IMG/VR virus record: IMGVR_UViG_3300025112_000071
Location: 1-35,681 of that record
DNA length: 35,681 bases
Origin: a virus
Direction: 5' to 3' (one strand)
The first letter of the stretch is position 1. Each line of letters opens with the position of its first letter. The translations under genes and the position numbers were made by a program. The notes beneath the pieces were generated by a model, which saw only the letters and a program-made list of their open reading frames with translations, was not told the origin of the DNA and made no database searches. Shown here in pieces: positions 12,040 to 32,069 of the stretch.

Positions 12040-13062
12040 GTGAAAAAAGCTTTAACATATGATGATGTTTTATTAACGCCCCAGTATAGTGATATTGAGA
12101 GTCGAATTCAAGTCGATATTCAAAGTGAATTAGATAATAATATACTTTTACATTTACCAATTATATCTAGTCCGATGGATACTGTTACTGAAGACGCCAT
12201 GGCTCTGGAAATGTTTAGAGCCGGGGGTCTTGGTATTATACATCGTTATAACACTATAAGAGAACAAATTGATATTGTCGATAAAATTTTGCAGGCTGAA
12301 AAGAGTGCCCATGTGGGAGCCGCAATTGGTATGACAGGAGATTTTAAGGAACGAGCACTTGCGCTTCGATCTGGGGGGGTGACTATCTTGTGTGTCGATG
12401 TCGCTCATGGATATCACAGTTTGATGGAGAGATGTTTAAAAACTCTTAAAGATCTTTTTGGAAGTTGGGTTCACATTATAGCCGGGAGTGTAGCTACTGT
12501 AGAAGGTTTTTCAAAATTATCTGAATGGGGCGCTGATTCTATTAGAGTGGGGATTGGAGGAGGCTCTATTTGTTCTACAAGGTTGGTAACGGGACATGGT
12601 GTACCAACATTGCAAAGTATAATTGATTGTGCTAAAAGTTCAACAGATACAAAGATTATAGCTGATGGTGGGTTAAGAACTTCTGGAGACATAGTTAAAG
12701 CTTTTGCAGCAGGGGCAGATTTTGTTATGCTTGGTTCTATGCTAGCTGGTACACGCGAAGCTCCAGGTGAAATATTTTCAAGTGATACAGGCAAAAAATA
12801 TAAAGTATACAGAGGAATGGCATCTAAAGATGCTCAAAGAAAACGAAGTAAGAAGATTTCAACTCCTGAAGGAATATCCACTACTATTCCTTACAAAGGA
12901 AATGTTGCTGCTATTTTGCAGGATTTGGAAGGAGGTATCCGCAGCGGATTCTCATACTCTGGAGCAAGAAATTTACAAGAATTCCGTGCTAAATCTGTTT
13001 TTGTGAAACAGACATCAGCTGGCCAAGCTGAAGGTACAACTCATATTTTAAGGAGAAATTAA
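12040..13062 (+). CDS. IMP dehydrogenase / GMP reductase family enzyme without CBS domains
   Basis: This 340-residue barrel enzyme either oxidises IMP to XMP (IMPDH) or reduces GMP to IMP (GMPR). Shared features are YDDVLLTP (7-14), SSPMDTVTE (43-51), the catalytic-Cys loop GGGSICSTR with Cys178, ADGGLRTSGD and GSMLAGTREAPGE. The CBS pair of normal IMPDH is absent, giving a length typical of GMPR (about 346). The flap (residues 258-285) reads YRGMASKDAQRKR and lacks the Arg-Tyr pair that IMPDH uses for hydrolysis; it resembles the GMPR flap. Against this, MDTVTE, HGVP, the PEG segment and the C-terminal SAGQAEGTTH are IMPDH-like. The start is GTG 12040 with AAAGGAG upstream. Family certain, reaction direction open. 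Confidence 0.85.
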   Translation: MKKALTYDDVLLTPQYSDIESRIQVDIQSELDNNILLHLPIISSPMDTVTEDAMALEMFRAGGLGIIHRYNTIREQIDIVDKILQAEKSAHVGAAIGMTGDFKERALALRSGGVTILCVDVAHGYHSLMERCLKTLKDLFGSWVHIIAGSVATVEGFSKLSEWGADSIRVGIGGGSICSTRLVTGHGVPTLQSIIDCAKSSTDTKIIADGGLRTSGDIVKAFAAGADFVMLGSMLAGTREAPGEIFSSDTGKKYKVYRGMASKDAQRKRSKKISTPEGISTTIPYKGNVAAILQDLEGGIRSGFSYSGARNLQEFRAKSVFVKQTSAGQAEGTTHILRRN

Positions 13063-22971: not shown

Positions 22972-23187
22972 GTGACAGAAAAGAAACCCAAGATACCTTC
23001 ATTTCTGTTTAGGATATATATATCCCGCCGCGAAGCAAAACTGATTTTGAATCGTTTAAATTTAACTGATGCAGAAATTGAAGAGAAGCCTTGGAAGGGC
23101 CGATTACAACAAAATTTAGTTGATTTAATTAAGCGCTCTCTGGTCAAGAAAGATGAGAAAATAATGGAGAAGAAAGATGCTAGCTGA
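22972..23187 (+). CDS. Small basic helical protein upstream of purA
   Basis: This 71-residue protein has an N-terminal basic/Pro segment, SFLFRIYISRREAKLILNRL, and a helical, Lys-rich C-terminus. I do not recognise it. The GTG start follows GAGGA and the gene overlaps purA by 11 nt, so the two are co-translated. Confidence 0.65.
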   Translation: MTEKKPKIPSFLFRIYISRREAKLILNRLNLTDAEIEEKPWKGRLQQNLVDLIKRSLVKKDEKIMEKKDAS

Positions 23188-24160
23188 TGTAGTTTTGGGA
23201 TTGCAATATGGTGATGAAGCTAAGGGAAAAGTTACTCATTATTTGACTAAGTTTAAACACTATACCCACGTATTGAGATTTAACGGAGGCTGTAATGCAG
23301 GCCACACCATTTATCATAATGGTAAGAAGTTTGTCACTCATCATATTCCGGCTGGTGTTTTTTATGGTATTAAATCTATCATAGGACCGGGCTGTGTGGT
23401 TAGTCCCAAACATTTTTTTAAAGAAATAGAACAACTTAAAGCGGGTGGTATTGACGTTGAAGGAAAGATTTTTATAGCTGAAAATACACATGTAATAATG
23501 GAAGAACACATGGCGGAAGAGGCATCTGAGAGCAAGATTGGTACAACGAAACGAGGCAACGGGCCTGCCTACCGTGACAAATATAATAGAACCGGTGTCA
23601 GAGCTTCTGAAATTCCTTCTCTTAAGCCCTATCTTATTAATTTATATGAAGAATTTCATGGAGATACTTGTGTCAATATATTGTGTGAAGGCGCACAAGG
23701 CTTTGGATTAGATATTGACTGGGGTGATTATCCCTTTGTAACATCCAGTCATTGTGGTCTAGGAGGAGTATTTTTGAACGGTGTTTCTCCTCATTGGATT
23801 AGAGATGTGTGGGGGGTTGCTAAAATGTACGAAACGTATGTAGGGTCCAAATCCTTTGAGCCAGATCAAGCTGTTTTCCAATCTTTGCGTGATGTAGGCG
23901 AGGAATACGGTGCAACGACAGGACGTCCACGGCAGTGTAACTGGATGAACTTGGATTTCCTTCAACGGAACGCAAGATTTAACTCTGTTAGCAAACTGGT
24001 GATCAATAAGGTTGACGTGCTAAGGGAGCTGGGACAATGGAAGCTTTACCATAAAAATGAACTACTTGAATTTGAAAATGAAGCGCAAATGTGCGAATAC
24101 ATCTCTGGTGTACTAAATAAGGTAGAGGTCTTTTTTTCCGACGATAAGAACAGCATCTAA
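23177..24160 (+). CDS. purA: Adenylosuccinate synthetase-like enzyme (PurA family, short form)
   Basis: This 327-residue enzyme would join IMP and aspartate with GTP to form adenylosuccinate, the precursor of AMP. The P-loop GDEAKGK keeps the catalytic Asp (Asp13) that PurZ enzymes of 2-aminoadenine phages replace. The second catalytic residue is kept in GCNAGHTI (His). GTTKRGNGPAYRDK, CEGAQG, TSSHCGLGG, GATTGRPRQ and NKVDVL follow the PurA order. It is about 100 residues shorter than E. coli PurA (432), close to archaeal short forms. The ATG follows GGAGAAG in the overlapping upstream gene. It likely works with the GuaB/GuaC-like enzyme (12040) on purine supply. Confidence 0.9.
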   Translation: MLADVVLGLQYGDEAKGKVTHYLTKFKHYTHVLRFNGGCNAGHTIYHNGKKFVTHHIPAGVFYGIKSIIGPGCVVSPKHFFKEIEQLKAGGIDVEGKIFIAENTHVIMEEHMAEEASESKIGTTKRGNGPAYRDKYNRTGVRASEIPSLKPYLINLYEEFHGDTCVNILCEGAQGFGLDIDWGDYPFVTSSHCGLGGVFLNGVSPHWIRDVWGVAKMYETYVGSKSFEPDQAVFQSLRDVGEEYGATTGRPRQCNWMNLDFLQRNARFNSVSKLVINKVDVLRELGQWKLYHKNELLEFENEAQMCEYISGVLNKVEVFFSDDKNSI

Positions 24161-24164
24161 TCTT

Positions 24165-24392
24165 ATGAAACCAAAGAAGCTACAAAAGCGGCTAGCCTTG
24201 ATTTCAAGAGCCAACGCTAAGATCAGTTATCTCAAAGAAGCAAATGTTTTCACGACGGACTTGGAGGCGTTGAATATTTTACAAGAGATGGTCAGTGAAC
24301 TACAAGAAACAATATCAGAAAATCTAAAACTTTCGAAAGAAATGCAGATCAGTAAATCTCTTGGAACGAGGAACAAGAGGAAACACAAATGA
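24165..24392 (+). CDS. Small helical coiled-coil protein
   Basis: This 75-residue protein is helical with heptad hydrophobics (KLQKRLALISRANAKISYL, then LEALNILQEMVSELQETI) and a basic tail NKRKHK. No ribosome site is obvious; it starts 4 nt after purA stops and may be translated by coupling. It overlaps the next gene by 4 nt. The function is unknown. Confidence 0.6.
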   Translation: MKPKKLQKRLALISRANAKISYLKEANVFTTDLEALNILQEMVSELQETISENLKLSKEMQISKSLGTRNKRKHK

Positions 24393-24550
24393 AAGTATAT
24401 ATACCCAGTAAGGCAGATGAAATATTAGAGCAAGCAAAGAAGGAGCTTTATCTTTTGAAGACGGCTATCAAGACCGAAAGCGAAGAGAAGCTTAATACCC
24501 GTATTGATAAGATTCGACAGTTACTTATAGAGATGGAGGAATCTAAATAA
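24389..24550 (+). CDS. Short helical protein
   Basis: This 53-residue protein opens with a short strand (KVYIPS) and then one long charged helix (ILEQAKKELYLLKTAI...IRQLLIEMEE). GAGGAAA precedes the ATG. It overlaps both neighbours (ATGA upstream, TAATG downstream), which supports it as a real, coupled gene. The function is unknown. Confidence 0.55.
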   Translation: MKVYIPSKADEILEQAKKELYLLKTAIKTESEEKLNTRIDKIRQLLIEMEESK

Positions 24551-24717
24551 TGGACGAATACGACGTCGCCCAGAATTTACTTAAAAATATCTTAGCTAAT
24601 ATTAAAGTCATAAGAGAACTTTATTCATCACATCTAGAGGACTCCGACTTTGAATCTCTTCTTGAGGATGGAGACTTTAGCTGGTTCTTAGATATTTTAG
24701 ATGAAATTGAAAATTAA
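24550..24717 (+). CDS. Short acidic helical protein
   Basis: This 55-residue acidic protein (LEDSDFESLLEDGDFSWFLD in its middle) shares one base with the previous stop codon, and GGAGG lies just upstream. It is the last gene before the promoter of the tRNA-Ile-like RNA. The charge and size would suit an inhibitor or DNA mimic, but no motif supports that. Confidence 0.55.
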   Translation: MDEYDVAQNLLKNILANIKVIRELYSSHLEDSDFESLLEDGDFSWFLDILDEIEN

Positions 24718-24720
24718 AGC

Positions 24721-24748
24721 TTGACTTTTAAGACCGTGTGCATATAAT
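24721..24748 (+). promoter_or_regulatory. Promoter TTGACT-N16-TATAAT for tRNA-Ile-like RNA
   Basis: TTGACT (24721-24726), a 16-bp spacer and TATAAT (24743-24748) place the start near 24755, six bases before the RNA's 5' end. This is strong evidence that the RNA is made. Confidence 0.8.
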
Positions 24749-24760
24749 ATTAAGAGAAAA

Positions 24761-24840
24761 GGGGGAGTATCCGCTCTGTCTTATAAGCAGTTGAAACGGT
24801 AAATGGTTACACGCGGGTTCGATCCCCGTCTCCCCTACCA
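24761..24840 (+). tRNA. Unusual tRNA-Ile-like RNA (anticodon TAT) apparently lacking a D arm
   Basis: The acceptor GGGGGAG/CTCCCCT (with A and CCA) and T arm GCGGG-TTCGATC-CCCGT are normal. The anticodon loop CTTATAA (24780-24786) sits on the stem CTGT/GCAG, with anticodon TAT (reads AUA). Only 7-8 nt lie between acceptor and this stem, too few for a D arm, while about 21 nt follow it, including a possible GTAA-ATGG-TTAC hairpin. CCG (24771-24773) may pair with CGG (24797-24799) below the anticodon stem. Total length is 80 nt. It could be a minimal or non-canonical tRNA, or a tRNA mimic. Confidence 0.65.
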
Positions 24841-24854
24841 AATTAAGAACACAT

Positions 24855-25076
24855 ATGTCGAAAAGCCAGGAAAAATATCTACAAGAACTTGCAAAGTATA
24901 GTGATGTGATCCTAAATACGAGCACTACATACGTGAAAAAATCATTACCAAGTGAAAAGATTAAGATCTTGGAAGTGCAAGAAGGGGTTGTGGTTCTGGA
25001 GAATGTACGGACTGGCAATATCTTCACTAAGACAACTCATTGGTGCAGAAAGAATCTCGTTCCGAGCGGAGAATAA
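24855..25076 (+). CDS. Small beta-rich protein of unknown function
   Basis: This 73-residue protein has a helical start, then strands KIKILEVQEGVVVLENV and TGNIFTKTTHWC, and ends RKNLVPSGE. The strand pattern resembles a small barrel such as the KVGDLV family, without the KVGDLV opening. No ribosome site is clear; translation may depend on the promoter at 24721. It ends 4 nt before the next start. Confidence 0.6.
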   Translation: MSKSQEKYLQELAKYSDVILNTSTTYVKKSLPSEKIKILEVQEGVVVLENVRTGNIFTKTTHWCRKNLVPSGE

Positions 25077-25080
25077 AGAT

Positions 25081-25482
25081 ATGGGAAAATATTTTGATAC
25101 AATAATTTTAAGCGGGGGTTTTGATCCAGTGGAGCAGAAACACCTAAATATGTTTAGGTCCGCTTCCCAGCTAGCTTGCAAGGTAGTGGTCGGGCTCAAT
25201 TCTGACGAGTGGCTACAAAAGCACAAGGGGGCACTCAACACTCCTTTCCTTGCGCGTAAGGAAGCCCTAGAAGCTCTAGAAAATGTACACGAGGTTCTAT
25301 CTTTTGATGATAGCGATGGAACAGCACAGGCTCTCATAAGTAGCTTAGATGCAGCGTACCCCACTCACGATTTGGCGTTTGGTAACGGGGGCAACCGCAA
25401 GATACAGAATACCCCAGAAGTAGAAATTTGTCAGAAGCTTGGCATTGCTCAAGTGTGGGGTGTGGGGAATTGTTTTGATTAG
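25081..25482 (+). CDS. Cytidylyltransferase-like protein with altered HxGH motif
   Basis: This 133-residue protein has the Rossmann-like fold of glycerol-3-phosphate cytidylyltransferases: IILSGGFDPV at the start, VVVGLNSDEWL, FLARKEALEAL and VLSFDDSDGTA. That order matches a cytidylyltransferase-like protein known from marine T4-like phages. The usual HxGH nucleotide-binding motif reads EQKH (residues 18-21 region), so the first His is missing and catalysis may be altered or lost. GGAG lies 9 nt before the ATG at 25081. The substrate is unknown. Confidence 0.8.
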   Translation: MGKYFDTIILSGGFDPVEQKHLNMFRSASQLACKVVVGLNSDEWLQKHKGALNTPFLARKEALEALENVHEVLSFDDSDGTAQALISSLDAAYPTHDLAFGNGGNRKIQNTPEVEICQKLGIAQVWGVGNCFD

Positions 25483-25490
25483 GAGGAACT

Positions 25491-25598
25491 ATGTTTGAAA
25501 TGTTTGAAGGAACATCGATGTTATTTGCCTTGTTAGGTATCAATATATTTATGTTATATATGGTTAGGCACGTGATAAGGGATAACAAAGATGAATGA
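25491..25598 (+). CDS. Tiny single-span membrane protein
   Basis: This 35-residue peptide has a hydrophobic span (MLFALLGINIFMLYMV) and a charged end (RHVIRDNKDE). AGGAGG lies 4 nt before the ATG, a near-perfect ribosome site. It overlaps the next gene by 8 nt. The function is unknown. Confidence 0.65.
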   Translation: MFEMFEGTSMLFALLGINIFMLYMVRHVIRDNKDE

Positions 25599-25725
25599 AG
25601 AAGACCTAGAGATTGATATTGAAGATATTGATCTGGCAGACTTAGATTTGCTGATTGACGATGATTGGATAAGTAGCATCGAAGGTACAGGCAGCATTCA
25701 GATCGATTTGGATTATTTGGATTGA
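25591..25725 (+). CDS. Very acidic short protein (Asp/Ile/Leu repeats)
   Basis: This 44-residue protein is dominated by Asp, Ile and Leu (LEIDIEDIDLADLDLLIDDD), ending IQIDLDYLD. It has a net charge near -15, an unusual composition for a folded protein; a DNA-mimic or inhibitor role is conceivable but not shown. AAGG is upstream in the overlapping gene, and the stop is 2 nt before the first KVGDLV gene. Confidence 0.55.
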   Translation: MNEEDLEIDIEDIDLADLDLLIDDDWISSIEGTGSIQIDLDYLD

Positions 25726-25727
25726 AG

Positions 25728-25928
25728 ATGAAAGTTGGTGACTTAGTTAAAGATATTTATTCTCATGTTTTGGGATTGATAATCGACATCCAAGAAAAAC
25801 CAACTGGCGCGGATATTTATACAAAAGCGCATATTCTATGGGTCGACCCAGGGGATGAAATGAAACTTACCACTCCACGAAGTTGGCGAAGGGAAATGCA
25901 AATAGAGACCATCAATGAAGCAGGGTGA
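25728..25928 (+). CDS. KVGDLV-family small protein 1
   Basis: This 66-residue protein begins MKVGDLVKD and follows the family order: a Leu-Gly-Leu-Ile strand (HVLGLIIDI), an aromatic strand (AHILWVDPG) and a Glu-Thr-Ile-Asn-Glu ending. The pattern suggests a small SH3- or KOW-like beta barrel (inference). The ATG is 2 nt after the preceding stop; a TTG at 25722 is a less likely start. Its last 14 nt (...INEAG, stop) overlap the next gene's start, the junction type found in the array. Confidence 0.75.
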   Translation: MKVGDLVKDIYSHVLGLIIDIQEKPTGADIYTKAHILWVDPGDEMKLTTPRSWRREMQIETINEAG

Positions 25929-26190
25929 TTTAGTAAGATGTATCTGGTGTCCTTTTACAGACGGAGGAACACCAACAGATCATCCTCTTTTTGCTCGAAG
26001 TCCAGAGTGGGAGGGAACATATAAATTAACGCGACCTATTAAAAATGAGTTAGGAATAATTCTATGCGTCGATCCATATCCTCACAATGATTTTACTACA
26101 AACAAAGGTAAAAAGATACACATTTGTTTTTTTAACGGAGTCCGATGGGCTCTCTATAAAGAACAACTCACATTGCTTAATGCATCTTAA
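25915..26190 (+). CDS. KVGDLV-family small protein 2
   Basis: This 91-residue member starts MKQGDLVRCIW and is longer than the others because of an insert rich in Pro and Thr (PFTDGGTPTDHPLF). It keeps ELGIILCVDP and the WALYKEQLTLLN ending. The start lies 14 nt before the stop of the previous gene, the exact overlap of the array at 28659-30475. It ends without an array-type junction, 26 nt before the GNAT-like gene. Confidence 0.75.
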   Translation: MKQGDLVRCIWCPFTDGGTPTDHPLFARSPEWEGTYKLTRPIKNELGIILCVDPYPHNDFTTNKGKKIHICFFNGVRWALYKEQLTLLNAS

Positions 26191-26200
26191 AAAGATTAAA

Positions 26201-26210
26201 AACTATTTAT
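26201..26210 (+). promoter_or_regulatory. Candidate late promoter-like element AACTATTTAT
   Basis: This matches the elements at 703 and 13673 in 9 of 10 bases. It ends 6 nt before the ATG at 26217. No -35 box or ribosome site is visible. Confidence 0.45.
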
Positions 26211-26216
26211 ATTATT

Positions 26217-26951
26217 ATGAAACTTCTACTTGAAAACTGGCGAAAGTATCTCTCAGAATCAAAGGCAGAGATAAATAATGAGCTTTCAGAGATAGCATTT
26301 AACACGATGTCTGCGATGTCTGTGTTTCGCGACGACGGCAACCTCTCAGAAGCGGAAGCAGCGGATCTCCAATATCTTGCAAGCAATGCTGCGAATCCAG
26401 ATGCAGAAGTTGTTGATAGATTTTATGACTCATTATACGGTGGAAAGCGAGCCGGTTTCCTCTCCGCTTATTCGCGTGACGAGTTGGCTAGAATGGATTT
26501 ATATCTCTTAGACGGACACAACGCAGGCTTCGCCATTAAGGATGGTGACGATATTGTTAGCGTCCACAATAACTCTGAGCTAAGAGGTTTGGGAAGCGAA
26601 TTTATGAGAAAAGCCAAAGAGGTTGGAGGCGCAAGACTAGATCATTTTGATGGTTTTTTGAGTGGCTTGTATAGAAAATACGGCTTCAATAATGTGTATG
26701 AAGTATATCAGTGGGATGAAAAATATAAACCTGCAAAATGGAACTATGACGAGGTAGACATTTTGAATCCACAAAATAGTATATATGCAGACGCACTTGA
26801 CGATATGATGTACGAAGATCCTGGTGCTCTCCCAAATGAAGAAGTCGACATCAAAGCTGAAAGCGGACTGGATATTGACATTAACCCGAAATTAAAATAT
26901 AATAGTTACAAATATGGACGCCCTGATGTAATCATGAGAAAACTATCTTAA
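26217..26951 (+). CDS. GNAT-like protein with capsid-targeting-like N-terminus
   Basis: This 244-residue protein begins MKLLLENWRKYLSES, resembling T4 capsid-targeting peptides, with LSE-S as a possible prohead-protease cut. A middle region (about 95-160) looks like a GNAT acyltransferase core: strands around GFAIKDGDDIVSVHNN, then RGLGSEFM (the acetyl-CoA pyrophosphate loop, R-x-x-G-x), and FDGFLSGLYRKYGF, the typical tyrosine-bearing end of GNAT domains. If packaged, it could be injected with the DNA and modify a host protein, as T4 Alt does by ADP-ribosylation. There is no ribosome site; a late promoter-like element is 6 nt upstream. Role inferred. Confidence 0.75.
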   Translation: MKLLLENWRKYLSESKAEINNELSEIAFNTMSAMSVFRDDGNLSEAEAADLQYLASNAANPDAEVVDRFYDSLYGGKRAGFLSAYSRDELARMDLYLLDGHNAGFAIKDGDDIVSVHNNSELRGLGSEFMRKAKEVGGARLDHFDGFLSGLYRKYGFNNVYEVYQWDEKYKPAKWNYDEVDILNPQNSIYADALDDMMYEDPGALPNEEVDIKAESGLDIDINPKLKYNSYKYGRPDVIMRKLS

Positions 26952-26970
26952 TTTTAAATTCGGAGAAACA

Positions 26971-27189
26971 ATGAAGAAAGAAATACTTTATAAAGTACAT
27001 GAAGGCTGTTATTTTAAGAAAGAAGAACTCACAGCCATGTGGTCGGAGAAATACAGTGATCCTAAGTTGGATCAAGAATGTTATTTGGTAAGAGTGATGC
27101 TCAAAAATAATTCTACTATATTAACTATCGCACATTCTCCCTCTAAGGAAGAGGCAGACAAGACGATTAAAGAAATAAATAAGACTTGA
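26971..27189 (+). CDS. Small phage protein of unknown function
   Basis: This 72-residue protein has a basic start with a Cys (HEGCYFKKEEL), two strands (CYLVRVMLKNNSTILTIAHS) and a helical end (SKEEADKTIKEIN). It is unassigned. CGGAG lies before the ATG. Its stop codon TGA is part of the -35 box TTGACT of the next promoter. Confidence 0.65.
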   Translation: MKKEILYKVHEGCYFKKEELTAMWSEKYSDPKLDQECYLVRVMLKNNSTILTIAHSPSKEEADKTIKEINKT

Positions 27190-27214
27190 CTCTTTAGCAA
27201 AAAATATTTATAAT
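27186..27214 (+). promoter_or_regulatory. Promoter TTGACT-N17-TATAAT, leaderless output
   Basis: TTGACT at 27186-27191 and TATAAT at 27209-27214. The -10 box ends 6 nt before the ATG at 27221, the same spacing as at 21774 and 27955. The stop codon of the upstream gene lies within the -35 box. Confidence 0.75.
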
Positions 27215-27220
27215 AGAAGA

Positions 27221-27421
27221 ATGGAAAAAGGAATTTTAAAAGTAGGGGATTTGGTAAAATCCAAATGGTGTACTGATTACAATGAAAATGATTACGGAAT
27301 TGTTAAGTGTGTATCAAAATCCAAGTCCCATGGCTATGTAGCGGTAGCGTGGACTGATGATTTTTTTAGTGAGTGGCAAGCTGAAGGATCTTTGGATCTA
27401 ATAAGCGATGGAACATCTTAA
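27221..27421 (+). CDS. KVGDLV-family small protein 3
   Basis: This 66-residue member has a five-residue extension before the family opening (MEKGILKVGDLVKSKW), then YGIVKCVSKS, GYVAVAWTDD and the closing SLDLISDGTS. The ATG lacks a ribosome site and sits 6 nt after a TATAAT box, so translation is probably leaderless. The stop codon and the next gene share a base (TAATG). Confidence 0.7.
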   Translation: MEKGILKVGDLVKSKWCTDYNENDYGIVKCVSKSKSHGYVAVAWTDDFFSEWQAEGSLDLISDGTS

Positions 27422-27711
27422 TGAAAAGCGAGACCTTAAAGTTAGCTTGGTTTCTTATTGCTTATATTTTTAATTTTGGTGATGCTATCTTTACAATGTA
27501 TGCTATATCTATGGGGGCAACCGAGTTAAATCCTGTTATGGCATATGCTCTAGACATCGATCCTGTATTTTTTCTATGCGTAAAGGTATTGGTTTTTGCA
27601 TTGGCGCTCGAATATATTGTGCGGAGGGCACCGAGGCTATTGATTTACACTGCTATTCTCTATACTTTTGTAATGGGTTGGCATCTATCTTTTTGGATGG
27701 GGATTTGGTAA
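27421..27711 (+). CDS. DUF5658-like three-span membrane protein
   Basis: This 96-residue protein has three hydrophobic spans, about residues 8-28, 48-66 and 72-93. The first loop carries NFGDAIFTMYAISMGATELNP, which matches the DUF5658 pattern (N..D...T....GxxExNP...) and is followed by FFLCVKVLVFAL with the conserved Lys in the second span. No function is established for that family. It is coupled to the previous gene by TAATG overlap and ends with the next start immediately after. Confidence 0.75.
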   Translation: MKSETLKLAWFLIAYIFNFGDAIFTMYAISMGATELNPVMAYALDIDPVFFLCVKVLVFALALEYIVRRAPRLLIYTAILYTFVMGWHLSFWMGIW

Positions 27712-27945
27712 ATGAAAATCGGTGACTTGATCAAGGTAGCTTTTTGCCCCCCTCCTGAGAGCAGCTTTTATAACTGCGGGTGCTTTTTCTGCTCTAACAA
27801 GAGCAATCGTATGGGGATAATCAAAAAGATACAGCAATCGGAGACGTCTGCTGCAAAGGCGTATACCGTTCAGTTCGATATAGGCGAGTGGATAGTCTTT
27901 GAAGAAGAAATGGAGCTAGTAAGCGTCTTAAATGAGAGTGAGTAG
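27712..27945 (+). CDS. KVGDLV-family small protein 4 with Cys cluster
   Basis: This 77-residue member starts MKIGDLIKVAFCPPP and carries NCGCFFCSNKS, three cysteines that could bind a metal, inserted before MGIIKKIQQ. The final strand is EEEMELVSVLNESE. The last codons (AAT GAG AGT GAG) resemble a damaged array junction: an ATG in the next frame there opens only an 8-codon frame (MRVSRYFP). It starts directly at the end of the membrane-protein gene. Confidence 0.7.
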   Translation: MKIGDLIKVAFCPPPESSFYNCGCFFCSNKSNRMGIIKKIQQSETSAAKAYTVQFDIGEWIVFEEEMELVSVLNESE

Positions 27946-27954
27946 ATATTTTCC

Positions 27955-27982
27955 TTGACTTCGCTCAAGCGGTTCTTACAGT
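27955..27982 (+). promoter_or_regulatory. Promoter TTGACT-N16-TACAGT, leaderless output
   Basis: TTGACT at 27955-27960 and TACAGT at 27977-27982 follow the 16-bp family. The -10 ends exactly 6 nt before the ATG at 27989, which has no ribosome site. Confidence 0.7.
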
Positions 27983-27988
27983 ATATAC

Positions 27989-28204
27989 ATGCAAAAGAAA
28001 AGTCCACAACTTGGTGACTTGGTGATGTTCGATGAGTACAACAATAGCCTTAACACACCTTGGCAGCATCAACTTGGCATCATTACTGAGATGCGACCGC
28101 ACAAGCGATGTGTGGTACGTTGGCCCGATGGCGGCACCAGTATGCCTGAACTGCGAATTTTAGATATCCTAAATGAATGTGAGGGAGCGAGCAAGAACAA
28201 ATGA
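27989..28204 (+). CDS. KVGDLV-family small protein 5
   Basis: This 71-residue member begins MQKKSPQLGDLVMFDE with QLGDLV in place of KVGDLV, then LGIITEMRP, RCVVRWPDGG and RILDILNECEG. The end runs on past the usual stop point (NECEGASKNK), another altered junction. The start is 6 nt after a -10 box. It overlaps the GIY-YIG gene by 4 nt. Confidence 0.7.
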   Translation: MQKKSPQLGDLVMFDEYNNSLNTPWQHQLGIITEMRPHKRCVVRWPDGGTSMPELRILDILNECEGASKNK

Positions 28205-28473
28205 GTTCAAAAAATACAAAGAAACCATGGTTTCTTTATGTAGTACGGTGTAGCGATGATACATTTTATACGGGAGTGACAAGTAATATTGACCGTCGTG
28301 TTAACGAGCACAACCATTCATCCAATGGAGCAAAATATACAAAGACACGAAGACCGGTTCAGTTAATTTACTGGAGAGATTTCAAGGATCGATCGGCAGC
28401 ACAAAAAGCTGAATATAAGTTTAAGAAATTAACTCGATGCCAAAAAGAGAAAATCATAAATGAATATCTATAA
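28201..28473 (+). CDS. GIY-YIG nuclease-domain protein (UPF0213-like)
   Basis: This 90-residue protein is a stand-alone GIY-YIG domain of the UPF0213/YhbQ type: PWFLYVVRCSDDTFYTGVT carries the first two motifs, followed by NIDRRVNEHN with the catalytic Arg, and WRDFKDRSAAQKAEYKFKKL with the metal-binding Glu. Such proteins are single-domain DNA endonucleases or repair-like enzymes of unclear role. A homing nuclease would normally have an extra DNA-binding domain, absent here. It is embedded among KVGDLV genes and overlaps both neighbours (4 and 14 nt). Confidence 0.88.
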   Translation: MSSKNTKKPWFLYVVRCSDDTFYTGVTSNIDRRVNEHNHSSNGAKYTKTRRPVQLIYWRDFKDRSAAQKAEYKFKKLTRCQKEKIINEYL

Positions 28474-28672
28474 AGTATTAACAGTTAGTTTGTTTCTCAT
28501 AACTCTTCTTCTGATATATAATGGTTACGAGAAGAAGCGAGCGCTGGACTCTTGTATAAACGATGTTACGCAAAAATGTTCAGGTTTATTTTCCTATGCT
28601 TCTGCGCTGGAAGAAGAGAATGCCAGACTGAACAAGCTCATTCGAGATTGTAGAGCTAATGAAAGCAGGTGA
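28460..28672 (+). CDS. Single-span membrane protein with coiled-coil tail
   Basis: This 70-residue protein has an N-terminal membrane span (VLTVSLFLITLLLIYNGY) and a helical outer part (YASALEEENARLNKLIRDC), the layout of inner-membrane spanins, though short. It carries cysteines at CINDVTQKC and RDC. Its end (ANESR, stop) is the first array junction: the ATG of the next KVGDLV gene lies 14 nt before its stop. That ending is the same as in KVGDLV proteins although the protein is unrelated, so the junction is not tied to one protein family. Confidence 0.65.
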   Translation: MNIYKVLTVSLFLITLLLIYNGYEKKRALDSCINDVTQKCSGLFSYASALEEENARLNKLIRDCRANESR

Positions 28673-28862
28673 TCTAGTGAGGATCAATCGTCCAAGCTCC
28701 GAGATGACCCACGGATCCCTTGGTTTAATAATTGAATTATGTGCGCCAGGTGCTCATCACCAAAATGATTTGTGGAGAATCCTGCTTTGTGATAATACAA
28801 AAAGGACATCTCAATTGCTTTTTGTAGCCCAGAACTTGGTGATAGTCAGTGAAAGTAGGTGA
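28659..28862 (+). CDS. KVGDLV-family small protein 6 (array member)
   Basis: This 67-residue member starts MKAGDLVRINRP, then SLGLIIELCAPG, LWRILLCDNT and QNLVIVSESR. The middle His/Asn-rich loop (GAHHQND) differs from its neighbours. ATG start 14 nt before the stop of the membrane/coiled-coil gene. Confidence 0.75.
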   Translation: MKAGDLVRINRPSSEMTHGSLGLIIELCAPGAHHQNDLWRILLCDNTKRTSQLLFVAQNLVIVSESR

Positions 28863-29016
28863 TTTGGTCAAATGTAAAGATGACCGTAACTTATATTTTG
28901 GCTATGGTATGATTTTGGAAGCTGAATCTCGTATGATTCTTGTCCGCTGGTTTGAAGATAATAACGAAGAATGGGTTTGGAAAATTAGTTTAGAGGTAGT
29001 CAGTGAAAGTAGGTGA
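28849..29016 (+). CDS. KVGDLV-family small protein 7 (array member)
   Basis: This 55-residue member has a GTG start. It reads MKVGDLVKCKDD, then FGYGMILEA, MILVRWFEDN and ISLEVVSESR, with Trp-rich EEWVW before the final strand. It is one of the shortest complete members, close to the minimal barrel. GGTGA upstream of the GTG in the previous gene may be its ribosome site. Confidence 0.75.
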   Translation: MKVGDLVKCKDDRNLYFGYGMILEAESRMILVRWFEDNNEEWVWKISLEVVSESR

Positions 29017-29185
29017 TTTAATTAGAGATAGAGACTATCCAGATGATTGCCCAGGCATAATCGTTCGTATAGATGATCGAAGAAAATCAAGACCGTATAT
29101 TGTTTTGTGTTCCGATGGAGTTTGTAGGTCATTTCCGAAGCGCTACGTTGAAACCGATTGCGAAATTGTAAGTGAAAATAGGTGA
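29003..29185 (+). CDS. KVGDLV-family small protein 8 (array member)
   Basis: This 60-residue member (GTG start) reads MKVGDLIRDRDYPDD, PGIIVRIDDR, YIVLCSDGVC and ETDCEIVSENR. It has three Cys residues and an Asp/Arg-rich first loop. GAGGT lies 6 nt upstream of the start inside the previous gene. Confidence 0.75.
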   Translation: MKVGDLIRDRDYPDDCPGIIVRIDDRRKSRPYIVLCSDGVCRSFPKRYVETDCEIVSENR

Positions 29186-29375
29186 CCTAGTGTCCATACG
29201 ACCTATTTTTGGTCGCCCCCTTGACAAAACCATCGGCGTTGTTATACTTGAAGCAGAATACGAGGGATATAAGGGACCTAAACCGATGAGGACGTTTTGC
29301 ATTCAGTGGTTTGCAGACAGACCGCAGCAATGGTGGGACGAAGACGATTTGGAGATTGTAAGTGAAAGTCGGTGA
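29172..29375 (+). CDS. KVGDLV-family small protein 9 (array member)
   Basis: This 67-residue member (GTG start) reads MKIGDLVSIRPIFG, TIGVVILEAEYEG, TFCIQWFADRP and DLEIVSESR. The aromatic run QQWWDEDD precedes the final strand. No good ribosome site precedes it (GAAATT), so it may depend most on coupling. Confidence 0.75.
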   Translation: MKIGDLVSIRPIFGRPLDKTIGVVILEAEYEGYKGPKPMRTFCIQWFADRPQQWWDEDDLEIVSESR

Positions 29376-29538
29376 TTTGGTTCAAATTTTACCTGCTCGC
29401 ATCAGTCACTATATTATAGTTGATAGATGCGTTGATCAACAATACGGTACTCCGCAATGGATTCTCTATTCGTTGGATGATACAGGAGGAATAACAATGT
29501 CCGAGTCATGGATCGAGGTTGTCAGTGAAAGTCGGTGA
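29362..29538 (+). CDS. KVGDLV-family small protein 10 (array member)
   Basis: This 58-residue member (GTG start) reads MKVGDLVQILPA, HYIIVDRCVDQ, WILYSLDDTGG and WIEVVSESR. The Gly in the second strand is replaced by Tyr-Ile-Ile, so the barrel turn may differ. GGAG precedes the start. Confidence 0.75.
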   Translation: MKVGDLVQILPARISHYIIVDRCVDQQYGTPQWILYSLDDTGGITMSESWIEVVSESR

Positions 29539-29725
29539 TTTGGTTAGAGATAACGGAGATAATGATTTGGGTCTTGTCGTGAGCGAGGTTCGTTCTTATG
29601 ATTTGGATGGAGAAGAGGGCGCAGAGTATGTCTGGGTCCAATGGAGCGAGTACGAAAACCCACAAAGAATGGCGCTGAAAGCAATAGTCGACGGCTGGGT
29701 TGAGGTAATCAGTGAAAGTCGGTGA
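29525..29725 (+). CDS. KVGDLV-family small protein 11 (array member)
   Basis: This 66-residue member (GTG start) reads MKVGDLVRDNGDN, LGLVVSEVRSYDL, YVWVQWSEYEN and GWVEVISESR. It is acidic. GAGGT precedes the start by 6 nt. A TTG at 29519 would extend it by two residues but breaks the family pattern. Confidence 0.75.
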   Translation: MKVGDLVRDNGDNDLGLVVSEVRSYDLDGEEGAEYVWVQWSEYENPQRMALKAIVDGWVEVISESR

Positions 29726-29921
29726 TTTAGTTCGTTTTTCAAAACATAATATGTATAACAAAAAGTTAGACATTAAATGGGGCTTGGGCTTGGTTACCGA
29801 GGTATATAGCGACCATGGTCGTGATAATGACGATCATGATGTGGAAGTTTGGTGGGCTAAGGTTGGTACTTCGCGAACGATAGCAGAAGATGTCATGGAG
29901 ATAGTTAATGAAGCTCGGTGA
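29712..29921 (+). CDS. KVGDLV-family small protein 12 (array member)
   Basis: This 69-residue member (GTG start) reads MKVGDLVRFSKHN, LGLVTEVYSDHG, VEVWWAKVG and EDVMEIVNEAR. The loop HGRDNDDHDV is Asp/His-rich and could bind metal. GAGGT precedes the start. Confidence 0.75.
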   Translation: MKVGDLVRFSKHNMYNKKLDIKWGLGLVTEVYSDHGRDNDDHDVEVWWAKVGTSRTIAEDVMEIVNEAR

Positions 29922-30090
29922 TTTAGTGGGGTTCGGTGATCGCACAGGCATCATCGTCGAGGATCATACAATGTGGTGTACCTACGCCAATGATGAGCCA
30001 TATCTAATGGGTGCAATGGTGGTTTATATTGAGGGTCGGCTTCGACGTGTGGTATATAAGAATCTGAGGCTGCTTAATGAAAGTCGGTGA
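29908..30090 (+). CDS. KVGDLV-family small protein 13 (array member)
   Basis: This 60-residue member (ATG start) reads MKLGDLVGFGDRT, GIIVEDHTMW, AMVVYIEGRL and LRLLNESR. It has the shortest first loop and uses Tyr in place of the usual Trp in the aromatic strand. GGAG precedes the start. Confidence 0.75.
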   Translation: MKLGDLVGFGDRTGIIVEDHTMWCTYANDEPYLMGAMVVYIEGRLRRVVYKNLRLLNESR

Positions 30091-30283
30091 TTTAGTTCAA
30101 TATCATGCTCGTGAAGAAGAGGAGGACACACTAGGCATTATTATAAAAGAAGAAGTTCAGCGAAACTATCTTGGAGAGCCAAAATTTTTTGTTGAGGTTC
30201 ACTGGTTCGACAATGATGAAACAACTTATGAACACGCTGATATCCTTCTTGATCCGGCTGAAGAGTGGATATGGGTAATATAA
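30077..30283 (+). CDS. KVGDLV-family small protein 14 (array member)
   Basis: This 68-residue member (ATG start) reads MKVGDLVQYHAREE, LGIIIKEEVQRN, FFVEVHWFDND and ends EEWIWVI, stop. It lacks the NESR/SESR tail: its TAA comes just before the next ATG (TAATG, 1-nt overlap). The tail loss is the only break in the 14-nt overlap rule. Confidence 0.75.
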   Translation: MKVGDLVQYHAREEEEDTLGIIIKEEVQRNYLGEPKFFVEVHWFDNDETTYEHADILLDPAEEWIWVI

Positions 30284-30444
30284 TGAAAGTCGGTGATTTG
30301 ATTGAATGCCCCGCAGGAATTGGGTTGATAACTGACGCCAATACTGTCAAACAAGGTGGATATGTTTTTGTGCATTTTCTCGGTGGATGGGGCAATGTCG
30401 TTGTCTATTGTAATACATTGAAGGTGATAAGTGAAAGTCGGTGA
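30283..30444 (+). CDS. KVGDLV-family small protein 15 (array member)
   Basis: This 53-residue member (ATG start) reads MKVGDLIECPAG, GLITDANTV, YVFVHFLGG and LKVISESR. It is the shortest full copy, with Phe in the aromatic strand. Its end overlaps a truncated copy by 14 nt. Confidence 0.75.
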   Translation: MKVGDLIECPAGIGLITDANTVKQGGYVFVHFLGGWGNVVVYCNTLKVISESR

Positions 30445-30475
30445 TTTGGTAAAACCTGTACCATGTTACCCTTGA
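30431..30475 (+). pseudogene. Truncated KVGDLV copy (14 codons) at the array end
   Basis: The junction repeat opens a GTG frame reading MKVGDLVKPVPCYP and then stops at the TGA inside the -35 box TTGACT of the next promoter. AAGGTGAT lies upstream, so it may still be translated. It looks like the stump left where the array was cut or fused to the next gene's promoter. Confidence 0.7.
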
Positions 30476-30499
30476 CTTTCCGAATACCGTACCTATAGT
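30472..30499 (+). promoter_or_regulatory. Promoter TTGACT-N16-TATAGT (CCGTACC core)
   Basis: TTGACT at 30472-30477, a 16-bp spacer ending ACCGTACC and TATAGT at 30494-30499. It drives the zinc-knuckle gene, which has AAAGGAG at 30519. Confidence 0.8.
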
Positions 30500-30533
30500 T
30501 AGAGCGTAACTGCTTACAAAAGGAGACAAGAAG

Positions 30534-31343
30534 ATGGTCTGGATGAAAGATCCAAAAACCGGCCGGAGCAAGAGAACGGTTCATTGTGGCTGGTGCTATG
30601 AAACAGGACACAACCGTGCGAGCTGCCCCCACTTAGGGGAAGCCATGAAGAAAAGAGTCGAGGATCTTAAAAAGCAAATTGAAAGAGGCGTGTTCGAGAA
30701 TTCTTATTGGGATGAATCGAAGGCCAGATATGAGATAGACCGCGTAGAAAAAAGATATGGTAGAGGCAAAACGCGCAAGAAAAGTACGTGTTCTTATTGT
30801 GAAGATGAAGGGCACAATAGAAGGTCATGCGAATTTCGTAAGAGTGATGTGCGTGCAGACGTTCAGAAAACCTTGTCGGCACGCAAAGAAATCGCGACCC
30901 GATTAGACCTTTCGGGATTTGGTCCCGGTGCTCTCGTCATTATCCATAAAAAATGGGGTGACGAGCCAGGAGAACAGCCTGCTTTGGTGGACAGTATCAA
31001 TTTTGTTGCCATTACTCATGAAAATGTTTTCGGTGGCAATCATGATTTTACAAGATTAGCAATTGCTAGAGGGTTCCCTACAGAGGATTACCCAAAAGGG
31101 CGAACCTATCCAATTTCACTGCCTTTAGATGTAGTTGATATTCATAATCGCGCAACCAAGGCAAAACTTCACTGCTATACACAGTTTGATGCTTATGAAT
31201 TGGTATCTCCTGTTAATGTCTCAGTCCCAGATGAGTTTTTAACTCTAGAGGGTTGTTCAAGGGGTGTTCGTTTGTCGGGCAAGTTTGAAGGGCGACGACC
31301 TCTCGAATATAGCAATCCGCACTATCCACCAGAGGAGGAATAA
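30534..31343 (+). CDS. Protein with two CCHC zinc knuckles
   Basis: This 269-residue protein has two perfect zinc knuckles of the C-x2-C-x4-H-x4-C type: CGWCYETGHNRASC (Cys18, Cys21, His26, Cys31) and CSYCEDEGHNRRSC (Cys86, Cys89, His94, Cys99). They are linked by a charged helix. Such knuckles bind single-stranded RNA or DNA in retroviral Gag and eukaryotic proteins and are uncommon in bacteria and phages. The C-terminal half (from 125) is beta-rich with PGALVIIHKKWGD, which echoes the small-barrel proteins nearby, and ends Pro/Glu-rich. It has its own promoter and an AAAGGAG site. Nucleic-acid binding is a reasonable inference; the target is unknown. Confidence 0.85.
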   Translation: MVWMKDPKTGRSKRTVHCGWCYETGHNRASCPHLGEAMKKRVEDLKKQIERGVFENSYWDESKARYEIDRVEKRYGRGKTRKKSTCSYCEDEGHNRRSCEFRKSDVRADVQKTLSARKEIATRLDLSGFGPGALVIIHKKWGDEPGEQPALVDSINFVAITHENVFGGNHDFTRLAIARGFPTEDYPKGRTYPISLPLDVVDIHNRATKAKLHCYTQFDAYELVSPVNVSVPDEFLTLEGCSRGVRLSGKFEGRRPLEYSNPHYPPEEE

Positions 31344-31345
31344 TA

Positions 31346-31606
31346 ATGACTTTGAAAGAAGCACATAAGCTACAACCTGGCGCAATCGTTAGGGAATCTT
31401 GGGGGCATGCCTGGAATCAAGGGCTTGTCTTGGCTAAAACATATGTGAAGGAAACTCATAGAGCCAAGATGCTATGCCAAATGAAAGAGGAACGCTATGA
31501 TGTTGTGGTTCATTGGCTAAAAGGTCCGAGGACAGGAGCCAGGGAGACAAATCCAAACACCTATCAAAATTGGGAACTGATGCTTCTTTCTCATTATGTC
31601 CCTTGA
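31346..31606 (+). CDS. Divergent KVGDLV-like small barrel protein
   Basis: This 86-residue protein follows the family order in diverged form: LQPGAIVRESW, QGLVLAKTYV, YDVVVHWLKGP and NWELMLLSHYVP. It lacks the array junctions. GGAGG lies upstream of the ATG and it follows the zinc-knuckle gene by 2 nt. Its TGA stop lies inside the -35 box of the next promoter. Confidence 0.7.
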   Translation: MTLKEAHKLQPGAIVRESWGHAWNQGLVLAKTYVKETHRAKMLCQMKEERYDVVVHWLKGPRTGARETNPNTYQNWELMLLSHYVP

Positions 31607-31630
31607 CTTTGGAAAATCCGTCCCTATGGT
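31603..31630 (+). promoter_or_regulatory. Promoter TTGACT-N16-TATGGT (CCGTCCC core)
   Basis: TTGACT at 31603-31608 and TATGGT at 31625-31630 with a spacer ending TCCGTCCC. The upstream stop codon TGA is inside the -35 box. Confidence 0.75.
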
Positions 31631-31663
31631 ATGGGCGTACCCTACTAACGAAGGAAAAGCAAA

Positions 31664-32038
31664 ATGGGTTATCGTTCAGAAGTAGTCTTCGCAGTTTCAG
31701 AAGAAGTGATTCCCGCTTTGATGTGTTTGTTCGCAAAGAAGCCAGAGGTGCAGAAGCTTTGCACTGTTGATTCAGAGCTAGATACTGACTACCAAGATGG
31801 TTGGCTAATGCGCTGGGACTATATCAAGTGGTACGAATCCGACACTGTGATAAATGATCTTGCGAGTTTCATCGAGGCTTTAGAATCTGATGACTTGTCT
31901 GATTATGGGTTAGATGACGACACGGACGGATGGTATCAACGGTTTAAGTTTATCCGCATAGGCGAAGATTATGATGATGTGGAGTCTAAGGGATGCGGAT
32001 TTGACGACATCCAATTGAACCGAGCAATTTCATATTAA
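31664..32038 (+). CDS. Small phage protein of the MGYRSEV type
   Basis: This 124-residue acidic protein begins MGYRSEVVFAVSEE and contains MRWDYIKWYESD and FKFIRIGEDYDDVESKG. The MGYRS opening plus a WY...RIGE..DD layout is seen in uncharacterised proteins of many phages. AAGGAA precedes the ATG, and it has its own promoter and probably its own transcript. The function is unknown; the acidity could suit an inhibitor. Confidence 0.75.
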   Translation: MGYRSEVVFAVSEEVIPALMCLFAKKPEVQKLCTVDSELDTDYQDGWLMRWDYIKWYESDTVINDLASFIEALESDDLSDYGLDDDTDGWYQRFKFIRIGEDYDDVESKGCGFDDIQLNRAISY

Positions 32039-32041
32039 ATA

Positions 32042-32069
32042 TTGACTTTAGGTAATCCGTGCTTATAGT
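32042..32069 (+). promoter_or_regulatory. Promoter TTGACT-N16-TATAGT (CCGTGCT core)
   Basis: TTGACT at 32042-32047 and TATAGT at 32064-32069. Start near 32075, which rules out the GTG at 32076 as an ordinary start for the next gene. Confidence 0.75.

Follow-up and report, generated by a model that had tools for sequence, protein, structure and literature searches.

The cloverleaf and the order of its segments are treated as near universal among transfer RNAs (tRNAs), truncated organellar tRNAs apart. Excerpts from two reviews of unusual tRNAs cover armless, extended, split, and gene-permuted tRNAs, and these excerpts do not describe the order of core segments considered below (PMC7609411; PMC4033280). 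A literature search that had preprints and many journals outside its range also found no description of this order, and an earlier one is possible. Here we analyzed a tRNA-like RNA encoded on the plus strand at 24761-24840 of a viral DNA stretch of 35,681 nucleotides (nt) (IMG/VR record IMGVR_UViG_3300025112_000071, positions 1 to 35,681), the whole of which is called the window. We read it as a phage-encoded tRNA-Ile with the anticodon UAU for the codon AUA, belonging to a widespread class of tRNAs for Arg and Ile whose core is rearranged (swapped-core RNAs); these would be functional and charged by the host arginyl- or isoleucyl-tRNA synthetase (ArgRS or IleRS), and we assign this reading a probability of about 0.87.

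Core order and conserved fold

A preliminary description, made from the window sequence alone, had seen a tRNA without a D arm in which acceptor, T arm, CCA, and a CTTATAA anticodon loop were intact. All of these parts are indeed present, as the full reading shows: GGGGGAG-TA-T-CCG-CT-CTGT-CTTATAA-GCAG-TTGAAA-CGG-T, then AAATGGTTACAC, then GCGGG-TTCGATC-CCCGT-CTCCCCT-A-CCA. The spacers, put at about 7 and about 21 nt, were roughly right; the exact counts are 8 nt between acceptor and anticodon stem and 22 nt between anticodon stem and T stem. The RNA shares with the canonical cloverleaf (RF00005) the acceptor of 7 base pairs (bp) and the 5-bp T arm with a TTCRA loop, and the anticodon loop of the class is canonical (7 nt, U33, purine 37) on a stem of 4 bp (subtype 1) or 5 bp (subtype 2). 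No D-arm hairpin with G18-G19 lies between acceptor and anticodon arm. The description was thus correct that a normal D arm is absent, but the relatives show a D-stem split around the anticodon arm, with a D-loop carrying G18-G19 on the 3' side of that arm.

Relatives were collected by a sensitive DNA search and then by IMG/VR pattern scans. The first scan gave 60 contigs, the next added 22 whose anticodon stems differ, and scans that put no constraint on the 5' half gave at least the further matches listed; the collection holds at least 161 distinct sequences. The first alignment revealed an invariant framework with paired changes flanking the anticodon arm (CCG/CGG, CTC/GAG, CCC/GGG). Given 60 relatives and no structure, RNAalifold recovered the acceptor stem, the T arm, and, between them, an anticodon arm with a 4-bp stem that is itself enclosed by a 3-bp helix. 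Both partners vary in 17 of 19 pairs among these relatives, 98.2% of cells are paired, and the covariation score is 0.874, compared with 0.21 after shuffling and no more than 0.18 when the partners are slid. Two pairs of the enclosing helix, the D-stem, covary in this alignment (A3), and the third, a C-G pair (columns 11/39) constant in the 60 relatives, is A-T in 8 further sequences. A normal D arm formed by alternative folding, for which the preliminary description had wanted homologues aligned, is rejected, as covariation supports only the enclosing helix.

On the 3' side of this helix the relatives read T-A-A-N-Y-G-G-N, which is the D-loop sequence A14 R15 N16 Y17 G18 G19 N20; A14, G18, and G19 are near invariant and N20 follows the isotype. 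Position 15 is matched by position 48 as in a Levitt pair, G15 with C48 in 3/3 and A15 with U48 in 146/151 sequences. Because the D-loop sequence, the base-20 identity rule described below, and the Levitt-type partners are all retained, we conclude from the sequences that the D-loop is present, obeys the identity rules, and has been relocated to the 3' side of the anticodon arm. The long internal-loop side TTGAAA is conserved in subtype 1 and differs in subtype 2 and the outliers. Subtype 2 (TA-ACC-NG-5-bp anticodon arm-ACNNA-GGT-D-loop) differs in its internal loop, its anticodon stem has all 5 bp, and, chance matches excluded, it occurs only as Arg(ACG) with A20 or Ile(GAU) with T20. Further outliers retain the swapped order with other internal loops; among them, L066:5323-5396, L215, L076:4235-4314, L196:6271-6350, and L197:5765-5844, all Arg(UCU) with GGA, are possibly more subtypes. 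Chance pattern matches (L081, L195, L198, and probably L202:3281) were removed.

Standard tools see little of this. ARAGORN made no call at 24761-24840 and found only tRNA-Arg(TCT) and tRNA-Leu(TAA) in the window. The Rfam tRNA model scored the RNA at 28.6 bits, just below its gathering score of 29, no other Rfam family matched it, and two swapped-core relatives barely passed the threshold. A near-identity search with a 10-kb stretch of the window returned the canonical tRNA-Arg as its only match. The covariance model R1 scored the window copy, itself one of the 60 training sequences, at 89.6 bits (E 1e-22); most class members scored 54-95 bits and subtype 2 was intermediate at about 29-50, whereas canonical tRNAs of the same loci reached at most about 31 bits. 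The RNA at 24761-24840 is no chance arrangement.

Isotypes, codon supply, and distribution

The anticodons of 161 distinct sequences are Ile in 112 (UAU 82, GAU 16, CAU 14) and Arg in 48 (UCU 27, CCU 9, ACG 6, UCG 6), with one UAC. Directly 3' of the displaced GG, each of the 48 Arg sequences carries A, and T stands there in 111 of the 112 Ile sequences. When all 77 columns were ranked by mutual information, N20 was second only to N35 as an isotype predictor and N73 was third, the discriminator being A in all 104 Ile sequences of the scan and G or A, twice T, in Arg. The identity set of E. coli ArgRS has A20 as its main determinant, together with C35 and A/G73 (PMC9976931), and the canonical tRNAs of our loci share the base-20 rule (A in 126/130 Arg, T in 27/33 Ile). 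The synthetase identity bases thus agree with the anticodon, N20 and N73 tracking Arg or Ile, as in a functional tRNA. A tree that ignores the columns of the anticodon loop and of the identity bases implies at least 9 isotype changes and at least 9 changes of N20; a founder effect for A20/T20 is disfavoured by these co-switches and by the fact that only identity columns are so diagnostic. The CAU members mostly carry C4-G69, and their loci usually also hold a canonical Met-CAU; they are probably Ile2 (lysidine) tRNAs. Behind this assignment stands the recognition rule of TilS.

An open scan requiring the acceptor and T arm alone, run on 1.8 Mb of class-carrying loci, detected 152 such RNAs missed by ARAGORN. 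The swapped core fits 129 of them, of which 127 are Arg or Ile, a restriction that holds within loci picked for carrying the class and not for all phages; the base-20 rule holds in 51/52 Arg and 74/75 Ile.

Swapped-core RNAs sit in tRNA arrays, and their anticodon is usually lacking among the canonical tRNAs there. Of the 52 loci that hold six or more canonical tRNAs, only three had the swapped-core anticodon duplicated by a canonical tRNA, compared with 15.6 expected, and none of 20,000 permutations gave a value as low. In Streptomyces phage Mildred21, CCU is the only canonical Arg tRNA found, while UCU, UCG, and ACG are swapped-core. In the main open reading frames (ORFs) of the window, AUA makes up 31% of Ile codons, the shares of AGA among Arg codons and of UUA among Leu codons are 33% and 29%, and the three tRNAs of the window match them (the swapped Ile-UAU, Arg-UCU, and Leu-UAA). 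A search of 26 phage records found no gene for ArgRS or an IleRS/LeuRS/ValRS-type enzyme (control genomes, 14/14 positive), which makes charging by host enzymes likely.

The relatives number well over 100 and come from phages of several bacterial phyla. The sensitive DNA search found them in Streptomyces and crAss-like phages, in or adjoining tRNA arrays and mostly unannotated. Cultured carriers include, besides Mildred21, the Streptomyces phages TunaTartare, Yaboi, and others, the Microbacterium phages A3Wally and Zooman, Vibrio phage 424E50-1, and Bacteroides phage tikkala. Among 84,980 species of bacteria and archaea, only 4 gave matches. One, in Pedobacter nyackensis, adjoins a phage portal-like ORF, is near identical to a phage contig (L060), and is probably a prophage; a cellular origin of the class is thus unlikely. 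GenBank labels swapped-core Arg tRNAs as tRNA-Phe(gaa) (L003:1996-2071, the UCG copy of Mildred21) and tRNA-Val(aac) (L211:401-478, Yaboi), and the UCU copy of Mildred21 as tRNA-OTHER; the wrong isotypes probably arose from forcing a cloverleaf onto these sequences.

Proposed function and rival explanations

In the proposed RNA, the 5'-3' order would be acceptor, D-stem 5' strand, anticodon arm, D-stem 3' strand, D-loop, T arm, and acceptor. The D-stem would extend the anticodon helix, stacking between the anticodon stem and the elbow, and the displaced D-loop would dock on the T-loop from the position of the variable loop. Because the T-loop could still meet G18-G19, and the synthetase base 20, in the relocated D-loop, the L shape is predicted to be retained. 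The host ArgRS or IleRS would then charge the RNA, which would supply codons heavily used by the phage, the window copy reading AUA. The sequences themselves show the fold, covariation, isotype restriction, identity rules, and gap filling, and we infer the L shape, charging, and decoding.

Several observations weigh against this reading. The window copy has A15-C48, which is not a Levitt pair, and folds no better than shuffled sequences (z ~ -0.5), so folding energy alone proves nothing. The search patterns fixed TATC, GAAA, and GTAA, and part of the invariance is therefore by construction. Three members depart from the isotype rules, namely L091:1726-1802 (UAU with A20), L050:4361-4438 (UCU with T20), and L114:4-80 (UAC, Val). 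Anticodons are duplicated in L016, which has a decayed acceptor stem, L104, and L105, and the swapped-core Ile-GAU of Mildred21 also duplicates a canonical Ile-GAU.

The rearranged core admits other explanations. The preliminary description had offered a mimic used against host enzymes. In a wider form of this idea, a non-decoding RNA, bound or even charged, would act as a decoy or a regulator, or would inhibit host tRNA enzymes or defences that target tRNAs. The unusual core would suit such a role, and phages are known or proposed to deploy tRNAs against tRNA-depleting defences (PMC10264068; PMC11555353), but the seven Arg and Ile anticodons lie in normal loops with U33 and A37, base 20 and the discriminator obey the Arg/Ile rules, and the RNAs usually fill gaps in the canonical set. 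A decoy would have no reason to complete a codon set, and gap filling therefore counts against a mimic, which we consider improbable. A truly D-armless minimal tRNA with a long unstructured spacer would explain the absence of a hairpin between acceptor and anticodon arm, but it is very hard to reconcile with a covarying 3-bp helix across the anticodon arm and a spacer that contains an intact D-loop with identity base 20. Of the earlier proposal of a minimal tRNA reading AUA, what survives is a tRNA(UAU)-like RNA that probably reads AUA; it is of normal length and not minimal.

The altered segment order also recalls the known circularly permuted tRNA genes, whose transcripts are spliced into canonical tRNAs. 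In those genes the 3' half precedes the 5' half, whereas here both acceptor strands are terminal and in normal order, only the order of the core differs, and no intron or leader separates the halves; we regard such a gene as highly unlikely. A pseudogene, or a remnant of a canonical tRNA broken by rearrangement, could be missed by ARAGORN, and L016 looks decayed. A pseudogene would not covary, however, so the compensatory changes in every helix of the 60 relatives contradict this explanation, and phages of several phyla carry the class; we give it almost no credence.

As to why a decoding tRNA would have such an order, escape from host tRNA-inactivating enzymes is our leading guess, made plausible by the known or proposed use of phage tRNAs against tRNA-depleting systems (PMC10264068; PMC11555353). 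A broader and rather doubtful proposal is that swapped-core RNAs form a separate class of decoding tRNAs with at least two subtypes, confined to the class Ia synthetases for Arg, Ile, and possibly Val, and kept because host cleaving or modifying enzymes miss the swapped core.

Genomic context and comparison with known systems

The consensus promoter that the preliminary description placed 12 nt upstream is confirmed (Table 1). The promoter-dense region of the window resembles an early host-takeover region, and the adenylosuccinate-synthase-like and IMPDH/GMP-reductase-like proteins hint at altered purine metabolism, perhaps with modified DNA. The tRNA region of Mildred21 (60-105 kb; L213) encodes a tRNA nucleotidyltransferase, a Ro-like protein, an RNA ligase, a polynucleotide kinase, and a transfer-messenger RNA (tmRNA), a set that suggests tRNA repair against cleavage.

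Table 1. Features of the RNA and of the surrounding window
Feature	Position	Strand	Basis or remark
Sigma-70-like promoter TTGACT-16-TATAAT	24721..24748	+	Consensus scan, 11/12 matches; 12 nt 5' of RNA
Putative swapped-core tRNA-Ile(UAU), 77 nt + encoded CCA	24761..24840	+	Covariance model R1, 89.6 bits
Acceptor stem 5' strand, 7 bp with 24830-24836	24761..24767	+	7/7 pairs covary, 60 relatives
U8, A9, U10 linker	24768..24770	+	Near invariant, partly by search-pattern construction
D-stem 5' strand CCG, partner strand 24797-24799 beyond anticodon arm	24771..24773	+	
Internal loop short side, CT	24774-24775	+	
Anticodon arm, 4-bp stem CTGT/GCAG, loop CTTATAA	24776..24790	+	4/4 stem pairs covary
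Anticodon TAT	24782-24784	+	Within CTTATAA loop
Internal loop long side TTGAAA, between anticodon stem and D-stem	24791..24796	+	
D-stem 3' strand CGG	24797..24799	+	Covariation
Displaced D-loop A14 A15 A16 T17 G18 G19 T20 T A C A21, base 48 (C)	24801..24812	+	
T arm GCGGG-TTCGATC-CCCGT, 5 bp	24813..24829	+	Covariation
Acceptor 3' strand, discriminator A73, CCA (24838-24840)	24830..24840	+	Sequence
IMPDH/GMP-reductase-like protein	12040-13062		
GroEL-like chaperonin, 529 amino acids, phage-encoded	17614-19203		
Dense near-consensus sigma-70 promoters before many small ORFs	21774-32069		Three 12/12
Adenylosuccinate-synthase-like protein	23177-24160		Best PRK01117, also PurZ, all below NCBIfam cut-offs; PHROG phrog_1211
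Nucleotidyltransferase fold (RfaE domain II / CoaD type), directly 3' of tRNA	24952-25482		Weak match

If these RNAs are functional, what is conserved in a tRNA would be the L shape and synthetase recognition and not the strand order. Inventories of phage tRNAs, studies of codon supply, and the annotation of isotypes would be incomplete or wrong, as with the Arg-UCG of Mildred21 annotated as tRNA-Phe, and the swapped core would offer a natural scaffold for orthogonal tRNAs. Cultured Streptomyces, Microbacterium, and Bacteroides phages make the reading testable.

Among known systems, the D-armless metazoan mitochondrial tRNAs (e.g., tRNA-Ser AGY) also have no hairpin between acceptor and anticodon arm, but they have no D-loop or G18-G19, whereas swapped-core RNAs keep both in displaced form at normal total length. 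The permuted tRNA genes of algae and archaea share an altered segment order; their halves are permuted and spliced back to normal, whereas swapped-core RNAs have normal ends and the mature RNA would keep the new order. The tRNA-like structures of plant viruses are likewise viral RNAs that keep tRNA identity in a non-tRNA topology, but they are non-decoding 3' ends of genomic RNA, whereas swapped-core RNAs are free RNAs with anticodons completing a set. Canonical tRNA-Ile and tRNA-Arg (RF00005) have the same acceptor stem, T arm with TTCRA loop, U8, 7-nt anticodon loop (U33, A37), and A14/R15/Y17/G18/G19/N20 D-loop, with A20 and A/G73 in Arg and A73 in Ile. In contrast to them, swapped-core RNAs have the D-loop 3' of the anticodon arm, a D-stem enclosing that arm, no separate variable loop, and, in subtype 1, a 4-bp anticodon stem, and would thus be tRNAs in function that stand outside the cloverleaf family by its tested defining feature.
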